DNA of 64,000 nt from Lycium barbarum (Eukaryota > Streptophyta > Magnoliopsida > Solanales > Solanaceae), in the NCBI RefSeq assembly GCF_019175385.1, contig NC_083344.1:8185725-8249724 (forward strand), read 5' to 3'. The position numbers and the translations under genes were made by a program. Below, in pieces: positions 1 to 6,498 of the stretch; within the stretch, counting starts at the first letter, position 1; every line of letters begins with the position of its first letter. Below the pieces are notes generated by a model. It was not told the DNA's origin and ran no database searches. It saw only the letters and a list, made by a program, of their open reading frames with translations.

Positions 1-1369
1 TATCCTTCAAAGCATAAAGTCCTTCTTTTGTAGATCCCTTTGCCAGTAGTGTCTTTGTCTTCTTGTCCTTAACAACAAAATGAGATTCGTCAAATTCAAG
101 AGTGCATGAGTTATCTTTTGCAATCTTACTAACTGAAAGCAGGTTCTTAATGATCTTAGGTACCACAAGAACTTCCTTTAACTTCAATCCTGATCTAGTT
201 GTGTTGCAAACATGAGTAATGTCTAACTAAGAGTCATTTCCAATGACACTTTTATCAGCTCCATTGTAATCTTTAAGTTCAGATAGATTAGCTGAGTTAT
301 TTGTCATATGACTGGTTGCTCCTGAGTCCACATACATAGCATCATTTGCATCTGATGTGTTCTGCAGATTTACAGTAACCAGTGCTTGTGGTAGTTCATC
401 TGTATCCTGGTATGAATAATCCCACCTATAGAAACACTTTAGAGCATTGTGATTATACCTACCACAAATCTGACATGCCTTAGGTACATCATTTCCCTTA
501 TTTTGACTTCCACCTTGAGAACTTTGATTATTCTGATTATTGTTTCCTTGGCCAGCAGGCCTGGAACCTCTTCCCCTTGAGTTAAAATTGTTGTTACCTC
601 TAGCTGTTTGGGAATAGTTTCATCTTTCTCTTTTTCTTTGAGCAGAGAAAGCCATATTGAAGTTCTGTTGAGGAGCTTCATCTTCATCCTCTCTCATGTC
701 AAAAACCGTGAATGCATTGTCAAATTGGTTTAGAGTATGATAAGGTGCCTTACCTAACATGACGATTCTGAATGTTTATTATTTGAGACCTAAGCCCCTT
801 GAAAAGTTGATCACTTTGTTGTTTTCATCAACAAGCTTGTGTATGGTTGCAAGTCCATCACAGATGCCTTTGAATTCCTTGATGTATTCATCAATCTTCT
901 TGCTTCCCAACTTAACATTCTGCAGTTACTGCTTTAGTTGGAATTCTCTGTCCTTTGTTGCCTGAAGGTAAACTTCCTCCAAACACTCCCACATCTCTTT
1001 TTCAGTAGAACAACCTACTATGAGATACATACTTTCTTCTATCAAAGTGCATGAAATCCAACTCCTAAGCAAAACAACCTTGTCTTCCCAATCATCTTCA
1101 CTACTACTATCTCCAACAGCCTCCCCATAATTTGTTTCACTAGCCTTTTCAGAACTAGTTTCAGCAGCTTCCTCAAATGATTTCACATATGATGATTCAG
1201 GTGTAGCTTCTTTGATGGGATAAGTTAATCTGACCACCTGAATCAATTGCAGCATCTGTGTCCTCCAAATTAGGTAGTTTGTTGGCTTAAGTTTGATAGA
1301 ACATGAGGTAATGGGATGATGTAACGATGAGGTTGAGAGAGTATTGGTAGCAGATGTTGTAGGGGCCAC
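1..1369 (-). pseudogene. Ty1/copia gag-protease, decayed, truncated by window edge
   Basis: Gag and the start of pol of a copia LTR retrotransposon, read right to left. The N-terminus (926-1369) starts with MAPTTSATNTLSTSS and has the copia Gag layout (YLIWRTQMLQ, then RSWISCTLIEES and MWECLEEVY). The same frame continues past a TAA at about 926 into a Gag core (IDEYIKEFKGICDGLATIH). Around 430-480 is a perfect CCHC zinc knuckle, CQICGRYNHNALKC (CX2CX4HX4C). Around 310-340 is the aspartic protease active-site motif YVDSGATSHMT, followed toward position 1 by a GAG-pre-integrase-like stretch. In-frame stops sit after LKQ (926), as a TAA pair after GLGLK (about 765), before the knuckle, and near 230 (DS*LDITHV), so it is non-autonomous. 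A Tork-like lineage is likely from Gag style. Integrase and RT lie beyond the left edge. Confidence 0.88.
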
Positions 1370-1433
1370 TTTTGGATGAACAGAAAAACAGTTTTTAAGG
1401 TTTCAAAACTTAAGCAACGAGAAGAGTTCTAAT

Positions 1434-1445
1434 GCTCTGATACCA
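1434..1445 (-). other. Primer binding site of the copia element
   Basis: The minus strand reads TGGTATCAGAGC, complementary to the 3' end of plant initiator tRNA-Met, the usual primer for copia elements. It directly adjoins the LTR end and lies 65 bp upstream of the gag ATG, which fixes element orientation. Confidence 0.9.
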
Positions 1446-1733
1446 TGTAGAATTCTCAAGCTATTTAGGAGAAAACTAAAGTGTATTTATGATACATTAA
1501 GCAAGTACAGAAGGCTCCATTTAAAGGAGCAATACAGAAGAATACTTAGCCTACTACAAGTGTAATACACAAGTTCTTATTCTAGTTAAACACTACTAGA
1601 GTTGGACTTATCCTTTAGCTATACATTACAAGAGTTTGATCCCTACTATAACTATACTCAAGTAACCGACTCCAGGATAAGTCCCTTATCCAGAGATGGA
1701 TTCTGCAAGTTGTCTTGATCTCTATCTTCAACA
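1446..1733 (-). repeat. 5' LTR of the copia element
   Basis: The LTR abuts the primer binding site and ends ...TTCTACA on the minus strand. Its other end is most likely at 1733, where the minus strand begins TGTTGAAGATAGAG. An alternative TGTTGTTAGG start gives 1446-1790. The sister LTR is outside the window, so the outer boundary cannot be confirmed. Confidence 0.7.
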
Positions 1734-1921
1734 TTGCTATGTACACTAAAAAGGATTCTTGATATATTTGTGCAAGTTAGCCTAACAACAACTTTAAAGA
1801 CAAACTTAGCTTCTTCCAACTGACCTCGTAGCTAACGGAGATAGTGGGCGTTACAGTACTTATAGGATGACGAAGAGGAGGATCTTATGGATTATACTTT
1901 GTAAACTATAATGGAGTTCTG

Positions 1922-1922
<1 letters not shown>

Positions 1923-1969
<47 letters not shown>
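1923..1969. repeat. (CT)n microsatellite
   Basis: About 45 bp of uninterrupted CT dinucleotides. The surrounding 1791-2154 holds no recognisable gene. Confidence 0.95.
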
Positions 1970-1971
<2 letters not shown>

Positions 1972-2154
1972 TTATTATTTCTGGGTTTTAAATCTGTATC
2001 CATTTAAGTTTTCCGTTTTATTTTGTCTGTTAATTTGATTAGCTTAGGGACCAAACATGAATACATAGTATAATTGAAGATTTATGAGATAAGTCGAATA
2101 ATACAAGGCTAAAAAATAGAATTAAGCAATAACACAAGGACCAAAATTCGGTAA

Positions 2155-2287
2155 GGATCTAGTAGCTTAGTTGGTTGGCTACTTGAACTCTCACCTTGTT
2201 GGTGAGGGTTCGAATCCCCCCATTGTAATCCCCTTCCCCATTTCCCCTTCCCCTACCCCCTATGTAATAAAACAATTTAAAAAAAAA
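2155..2287 (+). mobile_element. tRNA-derived SINE (SolS-type)
   Basis: A pol III box A (TAGCTTAGTTGG, 2163-2174) and box B (GGTTCGAATCC, 2207-2217) sit 32 bp apart, as in a tRNA gene. A tRNA-unrelated C/T-rich body and an A-rich tail (about 2278-2287) follow. Solanaceae SINEs have this plan. No clear target duplication was seen, so the 5' limit is approximate. Between this element and 2456 nothing else is recognised. Confidence 0.82.
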
Positions 2288-2456
2288 TCACTATTTTCCC
2301 TAAGTACTTTATTATCTCTAGCTACTAGAAAAATTACTAAGTATTGACAATAATATTCCACACTTTTATTGCATCTTATTCTTTAACACACAGTTTATAT
2401 CTAAAACATTAATTAATAGAAAAAATGTTGTGGCTAAATCATATCGAAATTTCATA

Positions 2457-4337
2457 TTAAATAAGGTCGTCATCATCCTGGAGCATATTAACCCATGCTT
2501 CTATTCCTTCTCCACATTTTGTACTCACAAATATGACCATATTCTCATATGGAAAAGTGGTAGTGCATACCCATAGTGGCTTTCCCCGTCCAAAATCCAC
2601 TTCATACACAGGAAACCTACCCCAACTTGTAAAATTACAAAACTCAACTTCCCCCTTTGAAAACATCTCCACTAATTTCCCCATATGTTTCAGAAAATCT
2701 TGTCCATTTTGTAATATCTTAATATAATCACTATTAATATTCCTTATTGCATTTCTCAACTGGTACACCAAATCATCATCATTAGTACTGGCCATCATTT
2801 CTGAAAATGCTAGCGCAGCTGTCCATAAGTTCCCAAAGGAGTTGTCCGGTATGGTTGGATTCATTCTTGACCTTATATTCACCGCATGAACTGCAGCAAA
2901 CATCTTTTTAGAATCTTTTTTCATGAAGTGCTTCCATACAAAGGCTGAGAGAGCTTCCACACGAGTGGGATCCTTCACTTGTGATCTTGAAGAAGCTGAT
3001 TTCCTGAGGGCACGGTTAGTAAAATTAGCTCATGAAAACATGATCCGTCTAATTTGTCTAAGTGTGAGTTGGTCATTGACCCATCAATTTATTAGCTTAG
3101 TCCATTTTACCCCATTACAAAATGGAAAAATCACGTTTGTATTTATGAGCGTAGCTATAGTTTCAAAAAACTACGAGATGTAGCTATCAGCGCTTATACG
3201 GTATGTGCAGATACAACTCTTTAATGCGATATCAGCTGATAGAGCATACGCTGATACAATTATACCCACCTAATACCCGCCTGATACTGCTCGTTCGCTG
3301 ATACAACTGATATCTACCTGATACAACAATTGTAGCTACGTTTCATAAATACGCAAATCGTAGCTACATTTTGTTATTACACTCTAACCTGTAGCTATTT
3401 ATCAAATTTTCTCTTAAAAACTTGGGTTGATGTGATTTGGACCCATGAGAGATCTTATCAATATATTTTAGAAAATACATTTTTTTCATTTGATATCTTA
3501 TATATAGCCATAATAAAGAAAAAAAAATAGTTTTACTAGATATTAAGAAATTACTATAAAAGAACAAGCAAGGAAATTAAAACATAGAAGAATTGAACGA
3601 GTTGGGTTATGAGCCGCTTTTTAGCTCAGCTCGCCAATTTGACGCCCCTACCTGAGGGCATCAAGCTTTTCCTTGTCGAAAACAAATCTCCTCGTCGTCA
3701 TCAGCTTTTCCTTCTTCATCCCTATGGATGGTTTGAAATTCGAATTAGACAAGTCTATCGACGGGAAAAGAGTACTTGCTAGGTTAAAATTAGGTTTCAC
3801 AATTTCGATGTCCCCTCGGGTAATGGCTGCCCATGCATTGATGAATGTCACTATGGACGAGCCATCACCAACTTTGTGTGACATGCACACACCTATTGCA
3901 ATCCCTTGATCGCAATCAAATAAATTAACTTGGACTGCTAGAAGGACATCATCGTCATTTCCTAGTACACGCGGGAGGAATTCTCTTAAGTCCTCCATCT
4001 TTGGAGTTTGTATAACATGTGAGAGGTTATAACCATGAACTTGAGCTTCAATAAACTCGGCTCCAGCATCGTTACAATCAATGGAATATTTGTTATCATT
4101 ATTGAGCCTTCCAGCCAATGGGTAGAATTGTGTTAAAGCATCGGATAGAGATTGCTTTAATAAATTTGTGGCACGATTGATATTGTTGTGATGTTGGTAG
4201 AAGAAAATTAGAGGGATGAAAACTGGAGGTGAGATTTGATCAAGAAGTGATAGTTTGTGGATTCTAAGAGGTGAAGGAGTTGGGGATGATGGTTTGATCA
4301 TTTCTTTCGATATGATCTCCACCTTATTGGCTTCCAT
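2457..4337 (-). CDS. BAHD-family acyltransferase (vinorine-synthase-like), two exons
   Basis: Predicted soluble cytosolic enzyme transferring an acyl group from acyl-CoA to a hydroxyl or amine of a specialised metabolite; substrate unknown. Exon 1 is 3652-4337 (ATG at 4335-4337) and exon 2 is 2457-3003. Joined, they give an uninterrupted 410-residue protein, near but slightly below the usual BAHD length (about 430-450). The catalytic HxxxD motif is HKVGD at residues 154-158. The structural DFGWG motif is DFGRG at 365-369, with Trp replaced by Arg. Other family marks are FYPLAGRL (about 71-78), KDPTRVEALSAFVWK and SFGNLW. The N-terminus and motif spacing fit the clade containing vinorine synthase and Solanaceae acylsugar acyltransferases. 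The 648 bp intron is almost exactly a MITE insertion. Upstream lies a duplicated TATA segment. Family call is firm; whether the gene is expressed and active is not shown. Confidence 0.85.
3011..3650. mobile_element. hAT-like MITE inserted in the BAHD gene
   Basis: Flanked by a perfect 8 bp target duplication CCTGAGGG (3003-3010 and 3651-3658), the length hAT elements make. The termini are imperfect inverted repeats: CACGGTTAGTAAAATTAGC at the left, and at the right, read inward, TAGGGGCGTCAAATTGGCG. It encodes nothing recognisable and holds a second nested inverted-repeat element. Confidence 0.82.
3114..3380. mobile_element. Nested inverted-repeat MITE within the hAT-like MITE
   Basis: The two ends are similar inverted repeats: ACAAAATGG then GTATTTATGAGCGTAGCTA on the left, with the inverse of CGTTTCATAAATACGCAAAT and CATTTTGT on the right. 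ATTAC occurs at both edges (3114-3118, 3376-3380) and may be its target duplication. Family uncertain. Confidence 0.6.
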
Positions 4338-4414
4338 GCCTTTATGATCCTCTCAAAATTAAACAACTTGTTATTTTAACTAGTTGTACTTTTAAATGGC
4401 TTGTACCAAAAAAT

Positions 4415-4518
4415 GAAGAGTGTTTTCACAATGCTCTATATAGAGGATGATATTATGGGTAGTATAGTTCAGAAGAGTGCTTTCACAATGCTCTATATAT
4501 AGGATGATATTATGGGTG
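4415..4518 (-). promoter_or_regulatory. Duplicated core-promoter segment of the BAHD gene
   Basis: Two ~47 bp copies, offset by 57 bp (4415-4461 and 4472-4518), differ at only a few bases. Each contains a TATA-like CTCTATATAG (minus strand), near 4435-4445 and 4491-4502. These lie roughly 100 and 155 bp upstream of the ATG, a normal distance for a TATA box plus short 5' UTR. A transcription start has not been shown. Confidence 0.6.
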
Positions 4519-4639
4519 CACGGTAGGTTGACATCAACGGATCCCAAACATATTTGACTTTTGAGTACTAGAATGTGGAAGAATAGAGACGATGAGGTCC
4601 GGTTGGTTTAGGTCCGGAAAAATCAAATTAAATAATATA

Positions 4640-4855
4640 CTCTATCTGTCCCAAAAAGATTGTCCTCATTTCCTTTTTAGTTTGTCTCAAAAAAATTATC
4701 TCTTTTTTATATTTAGAAACAATTTAACTTTATGAAATGATTTACAGCTACACAAATATCTAAGACCTGTTTTGAACCACATTTCAAAAGTCTTTCTTTA
4801 TTTCTTAAACTTTGTCTCAAGTCAAAAGAGATCAATCTTTTTGGAATGGAGAGAG
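4640..4855. mobile_element. Stowaway-like MITE
   Basis: A 216 bp element flanked by TA (4638-4639, 4856-4857). Its termini are matching inverted repeats: CTCTATCTGTCCCAAAAAG on the left and, read inward from the right, CTCTCTCCATTCCAAAAAG. Size, TA duplication and the CCCAAAAAG-type end fit Stowaway (Tc1/mariner) MITEs. Confidence 0.8.
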
Positions 4856-4860
4856 TATTA

Positions 4861-6498
4861 AAATCTCTTTTTTTTTTTTTGTTAGTATAAGCTGTGTATG
4901 CACATGATATGTCTTAACTTATTTTCTTTATCAGGTAATTAGGTAATTAGTGAATGAAGTAAATAATATGAAAAAAAAAAAAAAAAGTTCAAGGGTGATA
5001 GAACACCTGGATAATTTAAGTGTGAATTTGGTAATTTTACCTCCCATGTCTTGATGCCTCATCCCCAGAGGAAAAAAAGGGCATATCAGCTTTTCTTTGA
5101 ATTTCTAGCTTTATTGATAAGGGCAAACAAAAAGAATAGCCATTGCTTGAGACGCAATTATTGAATTAATTTTTAATGGACACGTGGAAACATGACTCGC
5201 CGCATTTACAACAGTGTTGATTTGATAATGACGTGATATAAGCTCCATTGTCTTGCTCCCAAAAGAATTTAATAATTAAAGAAAAAAAAATAGAGCCACG
5301 GTGGTCGATTTCATCCCGAATACAATGTATTTAGAAACTCCTTACCTCTAAACTTCTTTTCTATCCTTAATAAATAATATGTTATTATAACAGTTGAAAT
5401 GCCAAATATTTAATAACCCAACCAGGCAGGCAGCCGCATTAAAGGAATAAAGGGTTTATCTGAAGACGTGTCATGACAAAGGATGACAGCCACATTGCTA
5501 AGCTCTCTAGGTAAGTTTCAATTTGTGTGACGCATTTTTTGTTTTTGTTAGAACGAGATAATCTCATTTTATTTTTAATGAGAAATTTTATAACAATAAA
5601 AATATTATGATACGATTAAGATCATAATTTTTAAAAATTATAGTCAAACAAATAATATGAAACATTTTGAATCAATTTTTTTGATGTTGCATCAATTTAA
5701 ATATATCACATAAATTAAAACAAATAGAATATTTACAGTTGATTTGAGCATATTCAAATTTACCAAACATATTTGACTTTTCTGAGCACTAACTGGAGGA
5801 AATAAAGCACTGGTCTTTTTTTTTATTTTTTTATATCTAGCTTAGATATAACATTAACATCAGATAAAACTAAGCAAGCGCCTGGACATAAATTTAGTGA
5901 AATTTGAAAATGTAATAGCAATTAAAGTTAAGTTTAAGAAGTGTATTTTGGAAATTAAAGTTAAGTTTGGAAATGCATTTCACTTGAAAAAACATTAAAG
6001 TTATTGCGAATGAAAAAAAAATTACTTGAAAAAGTTTAGAACTAGTTATTCAAATTGAGAAATTCAACTTCAAGCTGAAATGAAAAATTGACTTCAATGT
6101 CCAACCAAATAATTTTTAAATTTTTTTTTAAAAGGCAAAAAAATTGCATATCCATGTTTTTCAGCCCCGGTTATTAAATTCATTTTAATGGAATGTGGAA
6201 GAAATCAAAATCATTTCATAATATGTCCATGACTTATAGATTAGGCCCTTTATCACTAGCTAGCTGCATTGACAACTGTTGATTCGATATATAATGATGA
6301 CATGATATAAGCTGCACTCGTTTTGTTTCAGAAGATCTTAATAAAGCAAACACAAACGAATTTTAAATGAATATTTATGCGGATTATAAACATTGTTTGT
6401 TTATATTTATTTATGAAATTTGCCTCTTAAGAAATTACACAGCATCATTTAGGATGTTGTATACCTTTAAAACTGTTGAATCACGTTATTATATACGA
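4861..6498. other. AT-rich intergenic DNA with diverged duplicated blocks
   Basis: No gene is supported. Blocks resembling the BAHD upstream region recur: AACATATTTGACTTTT at 4550 and 5765, and the phrase TGACGTGATATAAGCT near 5229 with a variant near 6299. This suggests an old segmental duplication of upstream DNA, now heavily diverged. Confidence 0.45.

Follow-up and report, generated by a model that had tools for sequence, protein, structure and literature searches.

A family of hAT-type MITEs in Lycium barbarum very probably forms introns whose splice sites are drawn from the target duplications (TSDs), and an element in a BAHD acyltransferase gene of the window is, as judged from its sequence, one such case. 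The window is the whole stretch of DNA that was analysed, 64,000 nucleotides in length (C8:8185725-8249724 in a genome of 1.67 Gb), and the positions given for the BAHD gene and its element are counted within it. The preliminary description of this DNA had proposed a single MITE acting as its own intron. With the family copies included, the finding appears to be real and larger than was first stated: L. barbarum, a land plant, would have an Introner-like family of hAT MITEs.

The BAHD gene is encoded on the minus strand. Exon 1 (3652..4337) extends from the ATG at 4337 to ...CCCTCAG, and exon 2 (2457..3003) from GAAATCAGC... through the stop codon. The predicted GT-AG intron between them (3004..3651, minus strand) is 648 nt long, which equals the element plus one TSD length. 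The 8-bp TSD CCTGAGGG is perfect (3003-3010 vs 3651-3658), and the identity extends another 2 bp beyond it (CCTGAGGGCA). The donor-side copy (3651..3658, minus strand) provides its last coding-strand base as the G of the donor GT and the element provides the T, so that the minus-strand donor reads CAG|GTAGGGGCG. The acceptor CCCTCAG|G lies entirely within the acceptor-side copy (3003..3010, minus strand), which holds the CAG|G. The preliminary description had placed a 640-bp element with imperfect terminal inverted repeats (TIRs) and a perfect 8-bp TSD between the two BAHD exon halves, with a donor GT made of the last TSD base and the first element base and an acceptor AG in the second TSD copy. 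The element agrees with this base for base and both junctions are exact. The 410-residue frame claimed for the spliced product was also recovered: removal of the 648 nt yields 410 aa plus a stop codon and one full-length PF02458 match (E 1.7e-82, residues 5-402), with the junction at residue 229, and vinorine synthase (2bgh) is the best relative of the protein with a solved structure. If the intron is retained, a stop codon follows immediately. These data support the prediction that the MITE acts as its own intron with TSD-derived splice sites in the window BAHD gene, and the arrangement is more than chance because 10 more independent insertions of the family show the same layout.

The window element is a truncated hAT-type MITE of 640 bp (3011..3650, minus strand) with the ends CACGG... 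and TAGGG.... It aligns to positions 1-31, 104-319, and 313-415 of the family consensus, with the ends beyond these diverged, and is without roughly consensus 23-103. The 5′ TIR TAGGGGCGTCAAATTGGC is located at 3633..3650 on the minus strand and the other, diverged TIR CACGGTTAGTAAAATTAGC at 3011..3029 on the plus strand. A nested insert of 290 bp (3124..3413, minus strand) is flanked by 9-base near repeats with 7/9 bases alike and is possibly a MULE-type MITE, a class inferred from these flanks alone. The same insert exists alone elsewhere in the genome (L047, C11:26411312-26411524), and part of it is taken as an exon in the RefSeq model P0007, which is described below. No second copy of the MITE family was found within the 64-kb window.

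The family sample consisted of the best-scoring 40 of 675 first-look candidates and is thus non-random; it comprised the window element, its paralogue, and 38 others. Candidate L047 was dropped as a family copy, matching the nested insert only, which leaves 37 others. A consensus of 425 bp (TAGGGGTGTCAAATGGGCGGG ... GGGCTAATTTTGCCACCCCTA) was built from 15 copies with mapped ends. The elements end in TAGGGGTG, with A at position 2 and G at position 5, and are flanked by 8-bp TSDs. These two positions, in short TIRs, follow the end rule of hAT transposons, and together with the TSD length they assign the family to the hAT type. The substitution divergence from the consensus is approximately 9%, with 0.095 for the exonic copies (n = 13, window and paralogue included) and 0.092 for the others (n = 26) among the best 40 of the 675 candidates. 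Plant sequences change at a rate near 7e-9 substitutions per site and year, and the age of the family would be of the order of ten million years, a figure that is only indicative.

An empty-site test was applied to each copy, in which the element plus one TSD was removed and the reading frames were read across with the TSD letters ignored. Of the 37 other copies in the sample (best 40 of 675), 11 interrupt long frames that close on removal, and these represent 10 independent insertions. The earlier suggestion that other copies of this MITE could do the same is therefore borne out at the sequence level. Three of the interrupted frames encode PPR proteins (L026, L028, and L051, the last of 768 aa). 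Others encode a BED/DUF659 protein (L052), a U-box/ARM protein (PUB, L054), a subtilase whose catalytic GTSMA motif contains the element (L056), and PDH E1-beta-like paralogues (L031 and L033, counted as one insertion). A 793-aa Sec15 protein (SEC15, L030) has its junction between two Sec15 domains, the frame at L027 has weak TPR matches only, and that at L020 encodes an unassigned protein with no Pfam match; for these three loci, the predicted exonic insertion is argued from the open frame. In L033, L052, L054, and L056, the junction falls inside one Pfam domain. The L056 product aligns without a gap to a tomato-type protease (3i6s) over the catalytic SGTSMA at which the element sits, and the L033 product does the same with PDH E1-beta (6cer) over DIRSLKP. 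Both PDH E1-beta copies that were met carry the element. Together with the window, the 10 independent insertions affect at least eight unrelated kinds of protein, with PPR counted once.

Five further copies with frames exceeding 100 aa over the empty site (L017, L025, L029, L032, and L038) were considered as possible exonic copies without AGGT, which would speak against an intron-forming family. L017, L029, and L032 were rejected because they have no Pfam match. L038 was rejected because its domain match begins right after the junction, which places the copy in an intron beside the exon. Near position 1773 of this locus (C10:96.15 Mb), the copy lies upstream of an E1 dehydrogenase exon, one base away from its acceptor AG, and the TSD of the copy renews the acceptor region. 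In L025 (1380-1810), a copy precedes an OST3/OST6 frame, and its right end, CTTCTA followed by CTTGCAG|G, fits the pattern. On the left, the copy is flanked by a poly-C tract with CCAG|GTATAATG; this side is ambiguous, and the copy was left out of the exonic count, although it may be another exonic intron.

The exonic insertions share a common design. The orientation of the element is identical in all 11 independent insertions, the window included (two-sided p 0.001). The preliminary description had proposed examination of the junctions of family copies in coding frames for AG|GT, and the TSD together with the first element base forms AGGT in 11/11 of these insertions compared with 0/14 other copies (Fisher 2e-7). 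The comparison set derives from the 26 copies outside the exonic count, from which 9 without readable ends were removed to give the 17 of the TSD table; 3 of these fell below a TSD match of 6/8, leaving 14. In 10/11 insertions, the element contributes the T of the donor and the final base of the TSD its G; in L027 the AGGT is within the TSD (CAGGTTTG). Predicted introns number 13 when the window, the pseudogene paralogue, and 11 other copies (both PDH copies included) are taken together. In all 13, retention leads to a stop codon, and a CTRAY motif is present whose A lies 17-24 nt from the 3′ splice site (21 nt in nine introns). In the window this motif is CTAAT (3024..3028, minus strand), a likely branch site with its A 21 nt from the 3′ splice site that also occurs in the family consensus. 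The TACTAAC reported earlier just upstream of the acceptor is indeed present (3015..3021, minus strand), but it was rejected as the family branch signal: its A lies just 12 nt from the 3′ splice site, the consensus has TGCCACC there, and the change is limited to the window copy and its paralogue.

On the forward strand of the consensus, counted from the end, the last AG starts at 60 nt and CTAAT at 18 nt. The reverse strand has an AG beginning 28 nt before its end, and its nearest CTRAY is at 308 nt. By these sequence features, one orientation alone is built like a plant intron, and only that orientation was found in exons. This bears on a possible, though less likely, explanation, in which the family is an ordinary gene-associated MITE with no aptitude for splicing and no introner property, and only chance arrivals at CAG|G survive. 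Such passive survival agrees with the 26/37 copies that were not shown as introns (best 40 of 675) and with the divergence of the exonic copies, which equals that of the others (0.095 vs 0.092) and so points to no distinct subfamily. The uniform orientation (11/11) argues against it, since a reverse strand with an early AG and without a near branch motif implies that the sequence of the element matters. The share of copies in coding frames (11/37) is also high for passive survival, though the sample is non-random.

The state of the window gene was evaluated through its paralogue and its relatives. A copy of the region is found at C8:18.6 Mb (L039), where window 1-2309 is matched at 96.4% and 2381-6140 at 92.7%. 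Window 1-6140 and L039 appear as a segmental duplication with a break near window 2309-2381, and one of the two BAHD copies is now a pseudogene. A tRNA-derived SINE look-alike (GTGAGGGTTCGAATCCCCC), recognized by eye at window ∼2158-2230, adjoins the duplication break, and window 1-1440 resembles, also by eye, a degraded copia-type retrotransposon on the minus strand. The L039 paralogue carries the same element with the same donor, the acceptor CCCTTAG|G, and a frame with two stops. The RefSeq protein P0007 is a model of this copy from which the damaged parts are omitted. It takes VDISCISERAVSGG from inside the MITE via an internal donor, and its join to exon 2 is made at the acceptor of the TSD. 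The choice of this acceptor speaks for the mechanism proposed below, and the use of an internal MITE donor rather than the TSD donor, in a damaged paralogue, is counted against it. The exons of the window and L039 differ at 30/1233 sites and the introns at 26/648 (Fisher p 0.06), with a dN of about 0.025 and a dS of about 0.023.

HXXXD and DFGWG are the motifs of BAHD acyltransferases. The window protein has kept the first as HKVGD, and the second has become DFGRG, where W is found in all 11 aligned relatives. Residue 357 is G instead of the C present in the same 11 relatives. The dN close to dS, the DFGRG, and G357 therefore indicate that the window gene is under weak constraint at most, so that a need for its product is no argument for its splicing; the gene looks relaxed or decaying. 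The earlier proposal of a MITE as its own intron in a plant enzyme gene fits everything that was found, but its host is not clearly a working enzyme, given DFGRG and a neutral-like divergence from a pseudogene. The closest protein is P0001 from L. ferocissimum (410 aa, 96%). Among the matches listed, no L. barbarum record had the sequence predicted for the window protein, although clustering at 90% could hide one, and the closest protein cluster contained no transcript-type source.

It is conceivable, although improbable, that the window gene is dying and that the element is merely a disruptive, unspliced insertion. The change from DFGWG to DFGRG, the dN near dS relative to a pseudogene, and the lack of a transcript-type record among the matches listed are all compatible with this interpretation. 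On the other side, the frame is intact apart from the element, though the element predates the gene duplication, and the splice signals match those of the other exonic copies in the family. The splicing of the family in the plant is suggested by a PPR gene at L040. The product predicted by removal of the MITE at CAG|G is identical to the RefSeq L. barbarum protein P0238 over 622/622 residues, and P0238, an annotation, can be read letter for letter in the spliced and not in the unspliced L040 DNA. In the PPR model P0244 of Withania somnifera, 11 residues are missing from exactly the MITE junction of the Lycium orthologue (SIS|GLEEG...). The gap looks as if an intron had been annotated there too, and a shared or a parallel insertion is possible.

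The sites are predicted to have been free of introns before the MITE arrived. BAHD relatives from Anisodus, Datura, Solanum, and Nicotiana are continuous over residue 229, as proteins, which do not show introns. The exon-1 ORF was compared with other species in search of genes interrupted at this point; among the best 120 of its 238 matches, the only Lycium names are P0007 and the distant P0165. Within the same genome, 20 other BAHD loci were hand-picked from 102 PF02458 matches; nearly all are 27-42% identical, and in 20/20 the alignment passes through the junction with no older intron at the position of the predicted one. L064 has an in-frame insertion at the junction position, and L070 and L071 are split further on. 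An old intron at the BAHD site is therefore unsupported. Entry of the element into older introns, or replacement of them, has some precedent in L038 and probably L032, which lie in introns adjoining exons. This origin is nonetheless very improbable for the introns described here, given the 20/20 BAHD loci and an element similarity that reaches both intron borders, with the TSD flush with the splice sites in 13/13 predicted introns. The removal of transposons from animal mRNAs has been reported as SOS splicing, and a similar noncanonical, TIR-dependent excision from RNA, for which the inverted ends are present, is the least probable of all, as TIR pairing needs none of the GT-AG borders and branch motifs (13/13), the single orientation, or the AGGT junctions (11/11).

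The mechanism that we favor is intron formation by the MITE with the help of its TSD. In one orientation, the ∼425-bp MITE carries most of a plant intron: the 5′ end TAGGGG, a T-rich body, a CTAAT starting 18 nt from the 3′ end, and a tail in which no AG begins closer to that end than 60 nt. Upon landing where the duplicated 8 bp end in AGG or include AGGT, the TSD would give the donor G and the acceptor AG. The spliceosome would then excise the element together with one TSD length, and the reading frame would be exactly as it was before the insertion. Exonic insertions without an AGGT junction would presumably be lost by selection, and those with it would stay as new introns. The BAHD element would be one of the latter. 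It was later carried, along with its gene, into the duplicate at C8:18.6 Mb, whose BAHD copy has since become a pseudogene.

Intron formation of this kind by mobile DNA has been described chiefly in single-celled organisms of aquatic habitats and in some fungi. The introners of the algae Aureococcus and Micromonas, attributed to Huff et al. in 2016, reportedly include an 8-bp TSD in Aureococcus and the use of TSD bases for splicing. The Lycium family is alike in both respects; it differs from these algal introners, which occur in many copies, and no sequence is known to be common to them. In maize, exonic insertions of Ds and dSpm are spliced from the mRNA, as single mutant alleles with imprecise joins. 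These are also plant transposons that serve as introns within exons, and Ds is likewise a hAT element, whereas the Lycium elements are a family of natural, frame-exact predicted introns in several genes.

A survey of 3,325 genomes found Introners in 175 (5.2%) (Gozashti et al. 2022, PMC9860276). It reports them from two animal groups but from no other animals and from no land plants, and it ties Introners to aquatic life and horizontal transfer (PMC9860276). The genomes were taken up to April 2020 (PMC9860276), and L. barbarum was perhaps not among them. As with the Introners described there, the Lycium family consists of nonautonomous DNA transposons with TSDs and TIRs, its similar predicted introns lie at unrelated positions, the splice sites would come partly or wholly from the TSD, and the length of the mRNA would as a rule be unchanged (PMC9860276). 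The survey asks for similar introns at four or more nonhomologous positions in unrelated genes; similar predicted introns at such positions, and the TSD and TIR signature of a transposon, are both found in the Lycium family. By comparison with the Introners of that survey, most sampled copies of the family do not form introns, the donor is split between TSD and element, and the acceptor derives from the TSD (PMC9860276). In the potato RdRp gene, an intron was gained through tandem duplication of an AGGT segment (PMC4974935). There, too, a duplicated AGGT can supply both splice sites, whereas the Lycium duplication is a TSD around a mobile element; the same paper counts few proven recent intron gains in plants (PMC4974935). 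A MITE survey of 207 plant genomes makes no mention of a new intron, intron gain, or Lycium (PMC12550479). No land-plant Introner family was found among the literature matches listed, which is no proof of absence, since most subscription papers lie outside the search.

How complex eukaryotes gain introns is an old question. The hAT MITE of Lycium is probably the first land-plant Introner family, and it would have given many genes spliceosomal introns that leave the frame exact; some of these genes are probably essential. If true, this would contradict the assumption that intron gain of this type does not occur in land plants, and at least 11 coding-frame insertions of a single MITE family in a terrestrial shrub would be an exception to a rule by which Introners go with aquatic life and are absent from land plants. 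The Lycium family would also offer a test system for the presence or absence of insertions among species, the splicing efficiency of young introns, and the features with which an insertion survives.
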